The notes below the pieces were generated by a model that saw nothing but the letters and a program-made list of their open reading frames with translations, searched no databases and had not been told where the DNA came from. Source: Sanguinoderma infundibulare (Eukaryota > Basidiomycota > Agaricomycetes > Polyporales > Polyporaceae). From it: a stretch of DNA of 64,000 nucleotides. Of the stretch, positions 3,747-57,287 are shown in pieces. The stretch covers positions 2,418,001 through 2,482,000 of the forward strand of contig JAVLRN010000001.1 in NCBI GenBank assembly GCA_032821775.1. Reading direction: 5' to 3'. Within the stretch, counting starts at the first letter, position 1; each line of letters starts with the position of its first letter. The position numbers were made by a program, and so were the translations under genes.

Positions 3747-4373
3747 GGAGGATCTGAGAGAGAGAGCAGGCCGTTGGAATACTTTCGAGGAACTTGTAAT
3801 ATCGGAATTACTTGTACATATTTGCTGCCTCGCCCTCACGCGCATCCGAATGGATGCTTTCCCTTCCGATTACTTTTTTCACCGTGATCTACATAACAGC
3901 GACCCATGCATTTGAGTGGTGTGACCGAAGCCCGCGCGAATGATATGTGTAGTACAGCGTCGCAGGCGAGTGTGAGTGGGAGTCCATGAGCCAGAGCAAC
4001 AGCAGCAGCAGACAACAGCGGGGATGTGTGCGTGAGTGGATGATGATACGGTGGTCAGCGATTGCAGGAAGTGAGAGATAGATCATCTAGAAATTAAGAT
4101 GGGTACCAGCGAGTGACTGCGAGAAGGCCGTAAACGTATATGCAAGTAAGGTAAACACAGAGCAAAGTTCGTGTGTGTGGTGTATCGTAGGAATAAAGAG
4201 GTATACATACGAATGAATGGAAGGGGGTGGTGAAAAGGGGATGGTGAATGTTGAGAGGAAAGCAAACGAGTGGGTGAGTGAGTGTAGCATCCGCTGGCAG
4301 TCAACGGCGAGAGCAGATGCACGAGCAAGACGCACAGCAAAAAAGGAAACGGCCATGTAGCTACCTAGCTATG
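3747..4373. other. Intergenic gap between convergent genes, no gene seen
   Basis: This 627 bp stretch between the sla2 stop and the stop of the next gene on the other strand should hold both 3' UTRs. Short purine-rich tracts (GAGTG and GAGAG types) are visible. No coding pattern or RNA gene was recognised. Confidence 0.5.
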
Positions 4374-7300
4374 TTACACATAATCAGCACTCTCCGCGCT
4401 CCGCAAAGTGTCGAACGAGTTCTTGCCGCGATCCATGTCCAGGAAGCTGCTCTCCATCGTCGGCGACTCGGGAGGCACCTCCCCCTCCTCTTCCGATACG
4501 TTCTCCGCGCTCCCGTCGTGCTCGTCCTCGATGTCGAGGAACGACGGCTTCTTCATGAGCGACCTCCGCTTCATGATCTTCTGCCGATCGAACGCACTCG
4601 GTGGTGGCGAGACGATTGTCGACGCCGTACCCGTCGAATCGTGCCGCGGCCTGACCGTACGCATAGGCGGCGGCGACAGTGGGTTCATCGGGACGATACT
4701 GGCGCGCTTTGCCGCCGACTCCTGGAAGTCGCGACGAGCAGGACGTTGCCGTGGAGGTGGTGGAAGGCTCGCCGACGGCGGTTCCGAGGAGTGCGAGGTG
4801 TAGACAGCGGATGCCAACCTCGGCGACAACGGTGGAGTGGTGCTGGATTGCGCCGAGGACGGCCGAGCGTTCAGGGATGGCGGCTTGTTGACAGCCTTCG
4901 CGAGCAAGGAAGTCGCCCGTGACGGGCCGCCCCGCCCTGGGTCCGTGAGCCCCATCTTCCTTGACGTGGGGCTCGTCGGTGACGGCCGAGAGCTGCTGGA
5001 CATGATCGACGACCGCGACGACAAGATCGACGCGCCTCGCGTCACCCCAAACTTGTCCCCAAAAGCAAGAGTGCCTGTCGACGAGCTCGACATGACGGAG
5101 TTGGATCGTGAGCGGGGACGAGGGCTGTATGTCAGTCCAAAGTCACCGGGGTGGAGATCAAGAGTCGGTTTTCGGATCTGGTAATCCGGCTCCGCCTCTT
5201 GCACCCCGCGTATGGACGCCGTTGCCTCTTCGTCGTCCAATTTCTCCGCGAGCTTAAGCTGCTCCGCCGGTGCCATGATGTACTGTGGAACGTACTCTGA
5301 CTGTGACATCCGCTTGTCCTTCCCATACTCCGCTGTCCCGTCCTCCCATAGAGACGAAGGGGATATGCATGCATTCCGTGTCGTCAGTGAGAGAGGACCT
5401 CCGGCAGCGCCAAACGACATCGTGAGCGTCTCAACTGGAATAGACGTTGATGGACGCGAGTCACTGTCCAAGCTCAAGACTGAACGCTTGTCGTCCGCCT
5501 CACCAGGGCTCGTTTGACCGTGCGACGACGTGCTCCTGCGTGCACTTGACCCAGAAAAGAGTCGTTTTCTAGGAGTCGTGACGTTTCCGCGGCGAGGCTC
5601 GATGACAGGAGAAGGCGGAGGTAGCGTCTCGATGCTCGTAGACGGATTCGAACTGCTGGCAGAGGAGCGCAAGCTAGGCAATGGCGGAATAGGCAGCGGA
5701 ATACCGCGAGGGGCATGGAACGACCGCTGTTTGCGTGGAGCCTTTCCTGGGTTCGGGTAAGGATGACCATTGCCATGGCCACTCGGATCGTCGAGAGGGG
5801 TGGACGGTGTAGACCTGACGCTCGCGGCCGTGCTCGCGGCGGAATGCCGCTGCGAAAAGTTCTGTTGAGAGGACATCTTCCTCAAGAGCTTCGCAGCTTT
5901 GGGAGTGACTTCACCGTGTATGAGGGTGGGAACGGGAGGGAATTTGCTTAACGGCGAAGGGAAGGTCAAATCGGCGTCCACCAGCCCAGTAAGACTGAGG
6001 TCCCCGTCCAGAATGTACGTGTCCCGGTTCTTGCCAGTCGCGCCCTTGGATGGTTCCCGCGCTTGTGGCGCGTCCCGAGCTGGCGGCTCGAACGGACCAA
6101 GGTCGTAATGGCTATTCAAGATCTGGGAAATAGGATCGTCTAGGTCCAGATCGTGAAGGTCTACACTGGGCGCAAAGTTCAGGCTAGATGAACTTGAAGA
6201 CGCCCGGAACTCTAGCCGAGGGGAACCATATGGAGAGGCGGGTAATGGTGAACGGTGACCTGGGGTTGGTGGAAGGCTAGTGGCAGGTGGCGCTGCAGAA
6301 GGAAGAGGGGGAACGTTGCCTCGCGAGGAAGACGCCTTGCGCACGAGTACGAGCGGATGAGTGGAGTTGGGAGACACGGGAGATTCCAGAGTCGCTGAGG
6401 AGGCATTGCGGTTACTAAAGACGACGGGCGAGGGGGAAGGGGTATTTGAGGAAGATGGGGAGGAAGAATCGGTCGACGGCTGGCGAACAAGCTGGAGTGG
6501 GCGGGTGGACTGGATCAGAATTGGTAGGGCGGTCAAGGGCGGGCTTCGCTGGTGGTCCATGGTACCGACGGTCATCCCTCTGGCGCGACCGAGAGCAGGA
6601 CTGGACCGTTGGCGAGGTAGGTGGACGCCGCCTGGTGGCTCGCTCATTCGACTCCTGTAATCGGTATGGGTCAGAGTCGAATTGGATGAATTCGAACCTG
6701 AGGGAGTCTTTGTTCGTCGTGCGCGCTGGGCCTGTGTTTCAGAAAGCGACGGTTGATCGAAAGAATACTGATCACCGTTCTGCATAAGATCATGAGCAGA
6801 ACGACTGCGGGTAGATCAGTATCCAGGCACGAGGAGGAAATTGGATGGCAGGAAACATACATTGCAGTGGGTGACCTTCCAAACGAGGTAGCGGACATGG
6901 GGGAGAGGGCCTGTGGGTCGGAGTAATTGCCATGGGAGTTGGAGGAGGAGGAGCCGTAGGAGACTCGGCGGTTGATTGGGGGAGGGATATCTGGCCGCTT
7001 ATGCTGTGGGTCAAGCATGGACGAGTCTGAATAGACGGAGAGCCGGTTGGGATCCTGAGGCAAAGGCTTGACGACGATGCCACCGGAAGCGAAGGAGTCG
7101 ATCTCGGAGAAGGTCATGACCGAGTGTTGGTAGGAGAGTCTGTCCCGAGGATGATCGGAGGGGGTGCGGGGCTCTGAATGGGGTTCTGAAGCGGCATCAT
7201 AGTCGTACTCGGAGGAGCGGACGGTTGAGACGGACTTTGCGGGAGGGCGATTTGAGTAGAAGGGGGAGGGAGCAGGGGAGGAGGAGGCGCTGTTTCCGGA

Positions 7301-49551: not shown

Positions 49552-50449
49552 ATGAACTTTGCGAAGCAGGGACTCGATGCCTACGAACGATCTCATTGTG
49601 AGTGCCGTGGTCAACAACCTGGGCCGTTCGCATCCACATCACCGGACTGATTGCGACGTTGCCCACCGTACAGCCGATGTCTCGAAGACCGGTGGGCACG
49701 AGTACAACTCTCCTCACCACTCTGAAGGTGGTCACAGTGGCGGAGGCCGTCCCCATTGTGCGTAAACTTGTTGCAAGCGCGAATGTCGCGGCTCATTGAA
49801 TCTGGTTGATAGTCGATGAGGACGAAGTTGTGAGCACCGCCAGCCGTGAGGGCAGCGGAGACCACTCGCTCTTTACAAGCGCGTTGGGCTTCGTCAAGCA
49901 GAACAAGGTCAGCGATCTCCTTATCTCTGGGATGTTCTAGAATGTCACTAACAGATGCTCTAGGACGAGCATGAACGTCCCATTGATGAAGAGCATATCC
50001 AGCACGCTCATCGTAAGGCTTACGAAGAGGATTCGGCCGGGTCACTGCCCGCAAGCTCTCTGGGTAGTGCTGCCGCGCTTCAAGTATTTTATTCATTCTT
50101 ATTCGATTGCGGAGTGCTTGCTCATAGTGGGTCTAGGTCCTGAAAGGGTTCACCTCCAGTGGTGGCGGTGGTGGCAGCTCGCAAACACAGCTCATCAGCC
50201 TCGCCATGGCGGAGGCGTCCAAGTTGTTTGACAAATCTGGGGGTGCTTCATCGGGAAACAAGCAGGACGCAGTCAATGGTGCCGCTATGACGGTTATGAA
50301 GCTTCTCGTCCAGTCGAAGTTTAGCGGCGGTAGTATTGGTGGTAGCAACAGTGGTGGACTCAGCAGTTTGATGGGCTTGGTGAGTACTGCATTGTATTCA
50401 TACTTCCGTGTGCTCAGTGCTTGGGTATCAGGCGTCCAAATTCATCTAG
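49552..50449 (+). CDS. beta-fg: Beta-flanking gene product (DUF7721-type Gly-rich fungal protein)
   Basis: Six exons (49552-49597, 49674-49757, 49813-49907, 49964-50083, 50137-50379, 50432-50449) sum to 606 nt, giving 201 residues in frame. The protein starts MNFAKQGLDAYERSH. A polar Gly/His-rich region follows, then an acidic linker (FDEDEVVSTASREG) to HSLFTSALGFVKQNK, a helical part DEEHIQHAHRKAYEE, SLGSAAALQVLKGF, a Gly run, and the conserved core QLISLAMAEASKLFDKSG, NKQDAVNGAAMTVMKLL. It ends in another Gly/Ser run and ASKFI. This is the family I know as beta-flanking protein next to basidiomycete HD genes. Its biochemical role is unknown. It lies 382 bp from HD1, convergent. A 6-bp inverted repeat (CTAGGT/ACCTAG, 50446-50463) overlaps the stop codon. 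Confidence 0.85.
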
Positions 50450-50831
50450 GTTCGAAGACCTAGCAGATACATGTGCCGAGGTGAGCGGGCATGGCAATGT
50501 ATCTTCCGAATCATCTCTCTACGATGAACGTGCGAATTTGGGAGTATGAATGATTCCTTCGTGCTATAGTTTGTATAAAACGAGATTATATTAGTCTGAT
50601 AGCGATATACAACGAACACAACCAGCGAAAGCAGCGATATTCAGGACAGCGATGCAGTGGGAACCAAGGTATATAGAACAAAATAAGACGGCAAGATAGT
50701 GATAAGTTAATAGCAAGCAGAGATTCGTTAGATGGGGCAAAACACGAAGTTCCAAACCCAGCGCAACCGGTACGCAAGTCATCCGACTTGACAACATAGT
50801 CAACCATGGAAGGGATGTTCTCAGAGCTACG
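50450..50831. other. Convergent gap between beta-fg and HD1
   Basis: 382 bp of AT-richer sequence between two stop codons, presumably both 3' UTRs. No gene was seen. Confidence 0.4.
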
Positions 50832-52338
50832 TCATGCCGCTTGACAGGCGGTGTGATTGTAAGGGGGTGACGGGAAAGCCATCCAGGCATGAGGATCGAG
50901 CTCGCCGAAGAGCGAGGAGAGTGTCGAATCGAATTCGATTGGATGTGTTTGACCCAAACACCAAGGAGCAGAGGTGTCATCTCGAGCATCGCTGACGTCT
51001 GATGAGTCCAGCAAGCACAGAGGACCTTTCTGATGCAGAATGTCGGTTGGGAAGACGACACCATCCTCTGATGATGGGTAGAGGCCAGAGGATTCCCCAT
51101 AGACAAGAGGATCGATGGTGATCGTACCACCCAATAGTGGGGTAGAGGGATAGGACGGCGTCCCATCCGATGATGTAGGGGAAGAGGAAGTTTCGGGGTC
51201 TGCATCGGGAGTAGATGCAATGGAAGCGGTGTCGCTCGCATCTTGTGGAAAATTGCAGCTGGCTGTGCAAGCATCGGGAGATGGCGATGCGGTAGGCATG
51301 GATGGGAACACAGGCGTGTCGAGAAGCGATGTGAGGAGAGAAGTGAAGTTGTCGTCCAAGTCGAGCGGTGGCAAGGGACTCGTCATGGGTTGGGACCAAG
51401 TGTCAAAAGGTTGTGTGACATCGACGTAGGGCACTGTATCGGATACATTTATCAGCGAGCGGCTTATAGAGGGGAAAGTATCATCAACTTACACGAACAG
51501 AGATGCAGAGGATCGAACGGTTGAATATCGAGACACGTGTCGGCGTCGTAGCAGGAGAGAGGAAGATCGGATGGGCCAGTGGAAGTACGCGGGACCGAAG
51601 TGTTCGCTTCGGAGGGACGATGCGATACATAGGAGTCGGAGACTGCATGGAGTCGGGGTCCAACGTGGACTCTCTTGTGAGCGGGCGGCGAGGCATCAGC
51701 GTCAGAAAGCCGACGTTTGCGGGTCCTCCTAACAGAGACAACGGTATCGGATGGTGGAGAGGGAGCAGGCAGTACCGCAGAAGGTTGGGATATGGGCGTC
51801 GACGCGTCTCTTTGCGTTCTACGAGAATGTCAGTACCGAGGGGAAATTATTGCTCTATGAATGCCAAACATACCGTCTGCGCTTTGGAGAAACGTGTGCA
51901 TCATCTGAGAGCCTACTACGCTTGCGACTGGGTACCGGAGCCTCACTAGTTGTCGACGACGGTTCAATAGACGCAGGCAGGCGCTGCGGATCCTGAGGCG
52001 ATGAGGAGCGACAACGCGTCGCGGACATGGGAGGGTCGGTGAGGGAAAGGTCGGACATCATCGAGTCAAGTTCGTCCACGAGCTTGGCACTGAAATTGTC
52101 ACATGTGGCGTACAATTCGATGGCGGCGTCTGCAAGCTCAGCTATACGCAGAGCAGCCGTATGCGCAAGGGCCAGGACCTTGGGTTCGACGTCAAATGAC
52201 TCGTACGCGGCTTTGACGTCGTTGAGGAGTGCTTCCATCTGGCCGTCGAAGGTAGATATTGCATCTTCTCCTCCATTGAGAGCAGACAAGAAGGAGTCCT
52301 CAGCGGCGAGCAAGCGAGATTCGAGAGAAAGGCTCATG
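50832..52338 (-). CDS. HD1: HD1-type mating protein lacking a recognisable homeodomain
   Basis: Three exons (52338-51874, 51818-51491, 51433-50832) give 464 residues. Exon 1 has the HD1-type N terminus: MSLSLESRLLAAEDSFLSAL, VEPKVLALAHTAALRIAELA, CDNFSAKLVDELDSMMSD. This region mediates non-self dimerisation with HD2 in the family. HD1 proteins normally follow it with an atypical (TALE-like) homeodomain containing a WFxNxR helix. Here it runs directly into a Ser/Pro-rich linker, the basic cluster RKRSRLSDDAHVSPKRRR at the exon 1 end, and a similar cluster RKRRLSDADASPPAHKRVH in exon 2. The remainder is acidic, Ser/Thr/Pro-rich and could activate transcription. No WF-x-N motif occurs in any minus-strand frame. 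Identity rests on the N terminus and on the position divergent to HD2; the frame is otherwise intact. Confidence 0.85.
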
Positions 52339-52542
52339 GAGATGAGGAAAGGTGGGCGGGTAAGGACGTGGTCAGTAGCGCCGGAACCACGAGTGATAAT
52401 GGAGAGGACAATGGGCTGGAGAATTCTCACGGTGGAACCCGATCCTATTGTTCGACTTATACTAATGTCACCTGGCGGCGATACGAGGATGTTCCCTGTA
52501 TACGTCCCTTCTCCACCTCCTTCAACGCCCCTGCGATTCGAC
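52339..52542. promoter_or_regulatory. Shared HD1/HD2 promoter
   Basis: 204 bp between the two divergent start codons. The HD1 frame is open across it into HD2, but translation there would overlap HD2 and resembles nothing. No TATA box was seen. GATA-N9-ACA at 52395-52410 is one base away from the GATG-N9-ACA element known for HD heterodimers. Confidence 0.55.
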
Positions 52543-54414
52543 ATGCATCCCCGCTATGATACAGCTGAGCTACGGCGACTCTACGCGTCCGCCAGCATCT
52601 TTGCGCAGAGGCTTTCTGTGCGGGTGCCTCCTAAAGTCGCTTCCAATACCTCTGCTTGTCACCTCTCTGCCGATGCCCTCGTTCTCCATATGCCTCCCCC
52701 CTTGACTTCCGAGCTCATCGCTATTGGCGTAAACCCAACCTTAGCCGATCGCATATCCTCGACGATGATAACTGCGCTTCTTCGTCTCAAGTCCGACTGC
52801 GAAACAGACTTTCAACGCAAACTCCCCTTCTTCGAAGCTCAATTACAGCGCATACCAGATCCCAAGTTTGCCGCGGCCATCACGTTCACCTACGTGACAA
52901 ACTACAACACGGCCATCCGCGACCTCACCTCCTACCTCTTGAATGAGGTCGCGCCTCGGGTTGTGAAGGCGCAAACGTTGCGTCAACGGATCGCGAAGTC
53001 CAGTCCGTCTGACGGTGGTTCCGCGATGAAGCGGCCTTTCAATCTGGTACGTTTTTGGTATCGCTTGGCTTGAACTACTAATTCAAGAGCATGTAGAGCG
53101 CCATCCCAATTCTCGAGCAATCCTTCGACGACAATGCTTTCCCAAGTCGTCTGGAGAAGTTCGAACTCGCGTCTAAGTGTGATATGGATTATAAGCAAAT
53201 TCACGTATGGGTGAGCCTGACCGTTCAGTTGAGTCCGTGATTAGACAATGATGACCCCCATGCAGTTTCAAAACCGACGTAGTCGACATCGGAAGGAGGG
53301 AAAGGAGTTGAAGCGTCGGACGGAAGAAAATCCTATCTTCGATGAGCTGGAGGAGTCTGTCATGAACGTCCTATTACCTGTGCCGCATGAAGACGACAAG
53401 TCTGAGATTGCGGACTCGAAGGTGAGCACGGAGTCCACTACACGTCACGTTCACAGTGCACCTAACATACATTGTTCCCTCGATTTCTTAAAGGCTACGG
53501 CAAACACCGACGAACGGACCTGTTTTCACCTGGCCCGTCCGCCTCACGCGTTTCCATCACCCTATCCTTCTCTCTGCTCGTACGACCCTTTCCCCGTCGA
53601 GCCTGGATGCAGAGCTTTCAAGACGAGTTGGTTTCGATCTCCGTCGAGCAAACCTCATGCACCTGAGCGTGTTTACGACGTATCCGAGCTGGTGCAGGCT
53701 TTCAGCAAGATGACTTTGTCTCGGGAAGGGACATCGAGTGACGGGGCTCCCACCATCCTAACACCTCACACCCCCTTGGATACATGCGCTCGCCCTTGCA
53801 TCGGATTCCTTACACCCTGCTCTCGAGCTCCGCACCCCGCTCTTATTAGGAGACCAAGACGGCTGCCACGTGGCGGAGTTGTCAATCGCTGTCGTTCCTC
53901 TGTCTGTCCCACGGGTGCTCTCGTCAAACCGCTCAAACGGTCTACCGAAGATCCTGCGCCGCATCCATCTACCAACTCGCTCTTCCTATGCACTCCTCTC
54001 TCCCATCGGCCCAAGCGCACCATACCCCGACGCCTCCCCAAGCATGCCCCAGTTGGCTCAGGGAGAACCAACAATCCTCGTTTTCCTGACGACACTGCAT
54101 TACCGACCCCGTCCAGGACGTCTTCCAATGCATCTACGTCATCGAAAAGCAGTGCCTCGGGTAGCGACACTGAATCTCTGCTGGACACGCCCCCAATCCT
54201 ATCGGTCGACTTATCTCACCCTCATCTTCCCTTCCGTTCCGAGGTGTTAATTGGCGATGATCTCTGGCTTGAACCGCCCGCGATAAATGCCGTGGATCAC
54301 ACGTATCTTACGGCTCCATCTCTCTTAGAGACCGATGTCAAGTTGTCGCAGTCTACAACAGAACGCTTTCCTTCATCTGTAGCCATCCCCTATTCCTCCA
54401 TGCTATCTCTGTAG
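52543..54414 (+). CDS. HD2: HD2-type homeodomain mating transcription factor
   Basis: The A mating-type factor whose heterodimer with a non-self HD1 binds DNA and triggers dikaryon development. Exons 52543-53046, 53097-53210, 53266-53421 and 53494-54414 give 564 residues. The N-terminal 150 or so residues form the helical specificity/dimerisation region (LTSELIAIGVNPTLADRISS, FTYVTNYNTAIRDLTSYLL). The homeodomain spans roughly residues 162-225: KRPFNLSAIPILEQSFDDNA, FPSRLEKFELASKCDMDY, and recognition helix KQIHVWFQNRRSRHRKEGK with the canonical WFQNRR. An intron splits the W and F codons, as in other HD2 genes. Later residues include APERVYDVSELVQAFSKM, a conserved post-homeodomain patch, then a disordered basic and Ser-rich tail. 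The third intron is 72 nt, free of stops and a multiple of three, so it could be retained. Confidence 0.95.
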
Positions 54415-54793: not shown

Positions 54794-57287
54794 CTAGTGT
54801 CTACCTAGCATAGCTACTTCATCTTCGAATCTCCACCTTCCGACTTCCGCCATGGCTTCAGTGTCTCCGCTTCTCAACTCCGGTGAGCCAAGCAGGACGG
54901 CGACCATCTCCCAAGGATCCTTCCCGCCGCCGTACCGGAGGACTTCGCACTTGTAGCGTTCGCCCATATTCCGGCTCAGTGGATCCCGCATGAATAGTCT
55001 CCTCCATACCCGCGAAGCAATAGCGCGATCGAACAGGTAGGAGTAGTACGTAGCTCCATACCCAAACAGATGTCCGAACTGCGTGTGCCACGACGTTCCG
55101 GGAACGTAAGGGATGAGACCACGCTCCGCATAGAGCCCTGCTAACGTGGCCGTGGTGTCGAAGTCGGGGACAAGGACGCCGGGAGAGTGATACATCTGAT
55201 CCAGCATCGCCAGAAGAATCTGGGTGTGCGTGTCGATGGAACGGCAGGGATCCTCGTGATGGTGGCCGGTTCGGCGGACGGGAAACGCCCCGTCGGTGAC
55301 GAATAGCGATAGAACGGTGGGAGAGTTAAGGAAGTGCTCCATGAGAATCGAAGGCAGTTCCACGAAATCGGTAGCGCATCGCGTACCCGACACGTTCTGA
55401 TACTCCGTCTGACCGATCATGGCTAACTCAGTGCGATAGATGTCAATGTTGTGTCCCTCGGAGTTGAGCGGTAAAGCACTCACAGTGCATTGCATGGCCC
55501 ATTTCGTGGAAAAGCGTCAATACTTCGTGCCATTCAAGGACAGTAGGACCGCGCCCGGTCGTTGGCCGGACAAATTCGCAAAGAAGGACAACGACAGGCA
55601 GCTGAAATATTACGTCTCGACCCGGGAGGTGAGCCTGTCGTCCTGCCTCGAATTCTTGGGAAAGGCGGATAACGGTAAGATCGTCTTCGTTGGTGTTCTT
55701 CAGGTCACCTCGCTCGTCGTCGTCGTCAGTTCTCCGCGAACAACGTACGGTGTAGTGCGCGGCTCCACTGGGCTTTCCCGGTCGTCCAAAGAGATCCGCG
55801 TAGACCCATCCAAGGACGCCCCGTTCCTCATCTATTACTTCTAGTTTTCGAACGTCCGCATGCCAAGCCTCTCCTGGAGACACTTCCGATACCTTGAGGG
55901 AAATGCCGAAAAGAGCCCGGAATAGACGCGATAGGGCCATGAAGACCGTGCCGAGAGTAAGAGGTGGGAGGGTGATGGGAGGGGCAGGAGGTTCTGGAGG
56001 ACAGTAATAGTCGCGGTCCCATGCTTGGATGAGAGGGAATGGCGGAGTCTTCAAATGCTCCTGCTTGCGCATACTGAGAGTACGCAGAGCCCGTCTGGCG
56101 TACGGCTGTGTGTGATCCATCAGAGCACCTAGAAAATGTTGCACGTTTTCTATCGCAAGTGGTTAGAACTACGCTTCGTAAATGAACGGAAACAGGATAC
56201 CTGGTGTCTTCGCCATCTTGTCTGTCAGAGCCATGTGCGCAAAGCCGTCCTTGCCCACCAAGCGTGCGAGCTCCCCGCGAGCACGCAGGAGGCGCTCGAG
56301 AAGCTCGATTTGCGTGACCGTACTGTAATTTGCGGCCATGTAGACTTTCCTCCTTGCTTCTTCAGAAGGGGCAGACCGCATAATCATCTGAGCCTGGAGA
56401 GAGCCGGGATATACGAGGAGATCCCGCTTGGTGACCTGAGCCTGGAGACGTAACCTTGCCCCCATACCCAGATCCTTGACGCCCTGCAGCTCGGACCACT
56501 GTATTCGTGCAGGAGGTCGCGGCGCCGCCGTTTCGTTCAAGAATTGCCGACCGAGAACCAAGATCTCAGTGGACAACGACACAAATCGTTCGCGCTGTGC
56601 AGGGGGTAGGTTTATACCAGACTTCTCGAAGTCCCGCCAGAAGATGAGTGCTGTCTGGTACGCTTCCGGACTGAGGGACTTGACAACCTCCTCGTCAGAC
56701 AGCACGTCACGCAGGACCTGATCCGCATTTCAGTCGTAGGGAATCGAAATAAGAACACGGGCGATGCGCACTTCGTACAAGCCGACATGGGTATTGAGCA
56801 CATTCATAAACTCGCACAGCTTCTCGTACACCTCCTCGGCACTCTGGGTCCACGCCTGGTCCGGATGCGCGTTCCTCAACAGCTCCGCGAGGTCTATGAC
56901 GCCGCACAACATGTCGCTGAGCCTGTCCAAGTTCTTCACGACCCTGAACAGCTCGTCCCGTGACTCCCGCGCCCTCAGGATCCGGTCCGTCAGCAGTTGC
57001 GCGCGGCGAAGCGTCGAGTCGGCCAGGGCGACGAAGGCGGATGGCGTGGTGAGCATGTGGTGTCCGAAGATCCCGGTGGGCGCGGTGACCTTTTGGGGCG
57101 CATAGGGCTGGTCGAAGAAGGCTATGAGGTTCGCGTCGTCGACGGAAGGGGGCTGGATGGCGGAGGTGGTGGCTGCTCGCGTGATGACCGCATCCCTGGG
57201 GAGCCGCTTCGCGCCGAGGCACCCGCGGAAGCGAGACGGTGGTTTGGCGGACGTGGAGAGAGCATTCCTGACCGCCCGAGCGAGCAT
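54794..57287 (-). CDS. mip: Mitochondrial intermediate peptidase (OCT1/MIP)
   Basis: A matrix metalloprotease of family M3 that removes an octapeptide from imported precursors after MPP cleavage. The start gives [20 protein letters not shown], a basic mitochondrial presequence. Conserved blocks follow: [60 protein letters not shown] and [20 protein letters not shown]. The zinc site is [11 protein letters not shown] (HExxH). Splicing there (donor at about 55488) gives [20 protein letters not shown] and [13 protein letters not shown], which carry the third zinc ligand region. The C-terminal exon has a [20 protein letters not shown] block and ends [13 protein letters not shown] is the most constant flanking gene of Agaricomycete MAT-A loci and is used to anchor the locus. 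Confidence 0.96.

Follow-up and report, generated by a model that had tools for sequence, protein, structure and literature searches.

An HD1 mating-type gene without a homeodomain in the A locus of the polypore Sanguinoderma infundibulare

An HD1 mating protein lacking its homeodomain is an already published trait of polypores, and the present work adds one more genome. In Coprinopsis cinerea the HD1 homeodomain is dispensable and that of HD2 is required (stated in PMC4915694, citing other work). The HD1 homeodomain of Pycnoporus cinnabarinus is recognisable only by alignment, helix III being degenerated and helix II carrying a deletion (PMC4101180, 2014). Earlier work on Postia placenta, according to the same source, had been unable to detect the HD1 motif, and function is not necessarily lost when the HD1 homeodomain is defective. 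HD1 of Wolfiporia hoelen showed neither WFXNXR nor the three-helix motif (PMC9503964, 2022). HD1 of Grifola frondosa has an NLS and no DNA-binding domain, retention of its function being argued from Coprinopsis, and the order of its locus is beta-fg, HD1, HD2, MIP (PMC10607315, 2023). Taxonomically, both G. frondosa and W. hoelen belong to the Polyporales. Polyporus umbellatus speaks against such a loss: SWISS-MODEL is said to show homeodomain features in both of its HD proteins, although its HD1 is 457 aa long (PMC11766841). HD1 proteins of Trichaptum combine a homeobox with a bipartite NLS and also possess a conserved region at the C-terminal end (PMC8970355).

The locus described here lies in a window of 64,000 nucleotides, the whole stretch of DNA that was analysed. 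It contains an intact HD1 mating-type gene, the product of which has lost the TALE homeodomain together with the segment following it and probably serves as a recognition, import and activation subunit, HD2 alone contacting DNA. The rationale offered in the available parts of the Pycnoporus and Grifola papers is much the same as in an earlier sequence-only reading of this DNA. The present analysis contributes two points: an excision common to nine full-length relatives, the flanks of which are conserved, and a helix that is a candidate for activation. Neither was met in the literature surveyed on HD1 mating genes, as represented by the available parts of the papers, and both may still be published.

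HD1 of G. frondosa (PMC10607315) resembles the window HD1 in the order of the locus and in combining an NLS (NLS-like clusters in the window protein) with the lack of a DNA-binding domain. The G. frondosa protein is described as having a 'C-terminal domain of homeodomain 1', whereas the window HD1 has no such Pfam match, the two proteins being compared by description. The comparison with W. hoelen HD1 (PMC9503964) is likewise by description, and that species is bipolar with an additional HD3. HD1 a1-1 of P. cinnabarinus (PMC4101180) is similar in length (495 aa), in keeping the N-terminal domain and in having no normal homeodomain; there, however, the homeodomain is degenerate with a deletion in helix II, and in the window HD1 no remnant was found.

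The three HD1 exons (Table 1), joined across GT-AG introns, form a single open frame of 463 aa plus stop. This confirms the intact 464-codon frame of the sequence-only reading, two details of which had to be corrected: the start (ATG 52337-52335, not 52338) and the intron sizes (55 and 59 bp, not 55-57 bp). Coding DNA for residues 98-187 is contiguous except for the 55-bp intron. Homologues match the window HD1 at E down to 3.9e-27, so the gene is not a product of chance. The neighbouring genes are arranged in the order beta-fg, HD1, HD2, MIP with HD1 and HD2 divergent, which corresponds to the pairing and flanks of HD1 in an A locus. The beta-flanking gene was recognised by DUF7721, which we take to be the beta-fg family. 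The N-terminal frame of MIP (56730-57287) gave no Pfam match and is counted as MIP by position. The WFxN motif of HD2 is split by an intron. An HD1 with the N-terminal domain kept and the homeodomain absent thus adjoins an HD2 with an intact homeodomain, as in the homeodomain-less HD1 loci of Polyporales.

Table 1. Features of the A locus in the window (positions are those of the window).
Feature	Position	Strand	Basis
Beta-flanking gene (beta-fg), recognisable part only (DUF7721)	49812..50379	+	PF24845, E 3.9e-27 on manually joined exons
HD1 gene, 463 aa, without homeodomain; exons 52337-51874, 51818-51493, 51433-50832	50832..52337	-	Spliced translation, Pfam, profiles
Possible activation helix, residues 291-303, DNFTSLLTSLLDT	51315..51353	-	Weak match to relatives' motif; low-confidence helix in P0001 model
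HD1 intron 2, 59 bp, GTAAGT...CAG	51434..51492	-	Spliced frame
NLS-like cluster 2 and conserved RKRRLSDAD..KR..GPRLHAVSDS, residues 187-217	51632..51724	-	Alignment
HD1 intron 1, 55 bp, GTATGT...TAG	51819..51873	-	Spliced frame
Basic cluster 1, NLS-like, residues 137-155, SRKRSRL...SPKRRR	51874..51929	-	Alignment
N-terminal domain, recognition/dimerisation by homology; residues 1-97, helices predicted at 5-22, 24-46, 52-97	52047..52337	-	Relatives' matches, hhalign probability 99.6, AlphaFold2
Intergenic region, 205 bp, between divergent HD1 and HD2 frames	52338..52542	.	Frame limits
HD2 gene, 588 aa; exons 52543-53046, 53097-53210, 53266-54414	52543..54414	+	Introns 50 and 55 bp
HD2 homeodomain, intact, residues 165-216, WFQNRR	53035..53295	+	PF00046, 48.9 bits, E 5.7e-13
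Mitochondrial intermediate peptidase gene (MIP), approximate limits	54797..57287	-	Peptidase_M3 in 3/4 open frames scanned

Pfam detected no homeodomain in the window HD1 at E<=10, the sole listing being Mating_N (residues 7-86, E 0.054), below its cut-off. A profile was built from the homeodomains of four homeodomain-bearing (HD-bearing) relatives, P0005 of Hygrophoropsis aurantiaca and three Mycena proteins (P0005-P0008 together). These four scored 141-149 bits and the window HD2 scored 7 bits; the window HD1 was not listed. With this profile the highest score of any of the 2125 six-frame pieces into which the whole window was translated was 5.9 bits, and pieces overlapping the HD1 gene reached at most 3.1 bits. 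Sensitivity was controlled by building profiles with one group of HD1 homeodomains while the other group was held out and also cut in halves. The profile of the three Mycena homeodomains gave 88 bits with the held-out Hygrophoropsis sequence, 41 and 38 bits with its halves, and -0.5 bits with the window HD1. The Hygrophoropsis-only profile gave 72-78 bits with the three Mycena proteins and 32-37 bits with their halves, and did not list the window HD1. Neither control profile gave any of the 12 homeodomain-less (HD-less) relatives a score above zero. WFxN is absent from all six frames of 50500-52545, the pattern being blind to a motif split by an intron, as in HD2. The window protein thus lacks the TALE-class homeodomain with the WFxNxR helix III and by domain definition is no HD1; its sequence marks it as a homologue of HD1 from which the homeodomain has been lost.

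A search with the window HD1, a query without a homeodomain, yielded five proteins at E<=1 (about 8000 candidates scored): HD-less proteins of Lenzites betulinus, Lentinus tigrinus, Trametes sanguinea and T. polyzona, and the HD-bearing protein of H. aurantiaca. A profile of the window HD1 and its four HD-less matches (again about 8000 candidates scored) added the three HD-bearing Mycena proteins. Eight new proteins were obtained by the NLS motif of the Lenzites protein P0001 (11 candidates, 10 matches), namely T. cubensis twice, Dichomitus squalens, T. gibbosa, T. meyenii and three N-terminally incomplete ones, none of the eight having a homeodomain annotation. In a Pfam scan of 17 sequences (window and 16 others) at E<=10, Homeobox_KN was found in four and Mating_N in 13; annotations and the homeodomain profile identify the four as P0005-P0008. 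P0009, P0013 and P0014, in which the predicted protein has no N-terminal domain, were excluded from full-length counts; P0003, with 2% query coverage in BLAST, aligns over its length. The full-length homologues retrieved comprise nine without a homeodomain (eight named species) and four with it (Hygrophoropsis, Mycena), and because retrieval was narrow (HD-less query, selection by NLS motif) the counts describe the retrieved proteins and not the order as a whole. The nine HD-less homologues (Lenzites, Lentinus, Dichomitus, Trametes) share the same short architecture, and the best-scoring matches are among them. Lenzites, Lentinus and Dichomitus, as well as Trametes, are Polyporaceae; Hygrophoropsis belongs to the Boletales and Mycena to the Agaricales.

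Since 9 of the 13 full-length homologues retrieved lack the homeodomain too, its absence is not explained by an assembly error. RKRRLSD follows the N-terminal domain after 66-109 residues in all ten full-length HD-less proteins, window included, and after 242-329 residues in all four HD-bearing ones, which are some 130-260 residues longer between the conserved flanks. The homeodomain of HD-bearing relatives is positioned between the N-terminal domain and the stretch matching basic cluster 1. Both the homeodomain and the segment after it are missing from the HD-less proteins, and the next K/R-containing stretch aligns in both groups. In its sequence pattern, the loss looks like a shared excision with conserved flanks. 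The sequence-only reading had described an HD1 without a homeodomain and without a WF-x-N helix in the minus-strand frames. Both statements were borne out, the former by Pfam, the HD1-specific profiles with held-out controls and structure prediction, the latter by the six-frame scan of 50500-52545. The HMM check for a degenerate homeodomain at residues 110-260, which it had proposed, was run with Pfam and the HD1 profiles and proved negative. Its view that HD1 dropped the homeodomain is well supported; its treatment of the loss as a property of this locus was mistaken, given the nine HD-less proteins among the 13 and the other published cases in Polyporales.

The retained parts were examined by alignment and modelling. 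Hhalign of four HD-bearing against nine HD-less relatives aligned the N-terminal domain with a probability of 99.6 and reported no second segment, missing also the shared NLS motif. Homology of this domain to the recognition/dimerisation domain of other HD1 proteins is present in the window HD1, dimerisation itself being predicted. In an AlphaFold2 run of window HD1 exon 1 (154 residues, with nine relatives) the three helices listed in Table 1 were obtained with high confidence, followed by coil with a pLDDT of about 48-56. The model of the full-length Lenzites relative P0001 (mean pLDDT 52.5) has helices 4-21, 23-45 and 51-96, which correspond in position to those of the window HD1, and one at 287-304 with a pLDDT of 63 (block 291-300) and 55 (block 301-310). 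Of 67 PDB matches returned at E<=10 by a fold search with the exon-1 model, not one reached E<=0.001, so that the fold gives no independent name. C-terminal to the position of the homeodomain, alignment shows NLS-like basic clusters, putative import signals, and a motif that the window HD1 shares with HD-bearing HD1 proteins. The window HD1 shares with P0005-P0008 the N-terminal domain and the RKRRLSDAD cluster, and with P0005 also GPRLHAVSD; unlike it, they possess a TALE homeodomain (Homeobox_KN) and a Mating_C match. Only fragments of the GPRLHAVSD motif are present in the three Mycena proteins. GPR[LV]HAVSDS occurs in 13 of 13 HD-less sequences, partly through selection, eight having been fetched by that motif. 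Eight of the ten full-length HD-less proteins, all but P0004 and P0010, have a further basic cluster (four K/R in six) in the interval from domain to motif. The mean majority fraction in the ten HD-less proteins is 0.61 for the N-terminal domain, 0.75 for residues 187-217 and 0.29-0.43 elsewhere. GPRLHAVSDS (within 51632-51724) is near-invariant in HD-less relatives and the remaining C-terminal half is variable. The RKRRLSD of the window HD1 resembles a basophilic kinase site.

A degenerate homeodomain could persist in the window HD1, unrecognisable by sequence, as reported for P. cinnabarinus, where the available text of PMC4101180 places one by alignment; residues 98-187 (90 residues) could house a shrunken domain. 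However, residues 98-136 are among the least conserved (0.29) and are modelled as low-confidence coil, and no signal was obtained from profiles which detect held-out HD1 homeodomains and even their halves. That hhalign aligns the N-terminal domain only carries little weight, since the shared NLS motif was missed too. Persistence of such a remnant is decidedly unlikely, and loss of the domain is the preferred explanation.

Assignment of the window gene to HD1 by descent relies on relatives and synteny, its Pfam Mating_N match being below cut-off. In whole-assembly searches P0005 finds the window HD1 via its residues 5-99 (E 4.4e-6), and its residues 412-459, containing the NLS/GPRLHAVSD motif, match the window HD1 at E 0.002; residues 3-132 of P0008 match it at E 1.3e-5. 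For the homeodomain stretch of P0005 the sole match is a weak one to a gene on contig C7 (E 0.34), and that of P0008 matches the C7 gene at E 2.8e-4; the segment after the homeodomain gives further matches on C12 and C1 (E 0.26-0.30). The window HD1, P0005 and P0008 as queries yielded one HD1 and no second one in the assembly, and a MIP piece as query gave a single good MIP match, besides another on C7 with E 0.068 and 33% identity; a second HD1 or second allele was accordingly rejected. HD1 residues 119-181, in the Ser/Pro-rich stretch with basic clusters, also had one match each on C9 (E 6e-4) and C4 (E 0.016), and these two were set aside. Searches of the genome with the PF12731 and PF12737 families gave no match; the controls were equally without a match, and hence the result is uninformative.

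Six-frame search of the assembly with Homeobox_KN gave a single match at E<=0.001, a strong one on C7. A separate TALE homeodomain protein, for example the product of the C7 gene, could therefore be imagined to be recruited to the HD1-HD2 pair and to share the DNA contact, but no link between the C7 gene and mating was found, and this arrangement is very unlikely. That the window HD1 is a decaying remnant, HD1 function having moved elsewhere in the genome, deserves hardly any credence: losing a defining domain can look like decay, with no tool result in favour, whereas the 463-codon frame is intact with normal introns, the flanking motifs are strongly conserved between species, the assembly is without a second HD1 (window HD1 and two HD-bearing HD1 proteins as queries), and the same architecture occurs in two different T. 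cubensis proteins.

Other homeobox genes of the assembly were also noted. Matches at C1:2527624-2527734 and C1:2532497-2532734 (loci L014 and L015), which share their contig with the A locus and lie about 45-50 kb past the right end of the window, are not recognisably mating genes; as a second A sublocus they were rejected, since they have WFQNKR/WFQNRR units and no HD1-query match was found there. At C1:3541475-3542760 (locus L016, about 3976-5261, minus strand) three homeodomain matches follow one another in about 1.3 kb, and a single 545-aa open frame contains two of them. L016 may be one gene with three homeodomains, which to our knowledge is unusual for a fungus. The same homeobox match with the same nearby translation occurs at C9:2396923 and C18:406712, which suggests some duplicated or alternate-haplotype stretches in the assembly.

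An LDxFLxSLL-like stretch is located some 49-93 residues past HAVSDS in most HD-less relatives. Motif seeds were picked by eye in 10 sequences, window excluded, and scored by leave-one-out against 1000 shuffles. In 10 of 13 HD-less proteins at most 41 of 1000 shuffles equalled the score; among these ten the window protein, with 41, has the weakest result. The motif fails in P0004, P0013 and P0015, in the last despite its being a seed. Among HD-bearing proteins P0008 (44 shuffles) is near that level and the other three are not. The low-confidence helix of the Lenzites model spans most of the stretch. The LDxFLxSLL-like C-terminal helix is thus a possible, weakly supported candidate activation element, a lead and not a proof.

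Loss of the homeodomain from an intact HD1 is best accommodated by the division of labour that the sequence-only reading proposed; by analogy with the Coprinopsis precedent and in view of the retained parts it appears the likeliest mechanism. The N-terminal helical domain of HD1 would pair with HD2 of a different mating type, and the basic clusters would bring the pair into the nucleus. Transcription would be activated by the C-terminal region of HD1, perhaps by the LDxFLxSLL-like helix, and DNA would be contacted by the HD2 homeodomain alone. A wider reading can be offered tentatively, as conceivable though somewhat doubtful. The homeodomain may have been cleanly removed with the following segment early in Polyporales or the polyporoid lineage, and the regulators may since have used that of HD2 alone. 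HD1 would then supply recognition, import and activation, the last through a conserved C-terminal helix, and the targets would be half-sites or need another partner.

In the usual model of the mushroom mating switch two homeodomain proteins jointly bind DNA, and here one of them is without a homeodomain. Homeodomain-based annotation can miss such HD1 genes in polypores. Evolution appears to have brought about the loss of a domain which, according to reports on Coprinopsis, can be tolerated, and polypores amenable to laboratory crossing make it possible to test the division of labour.
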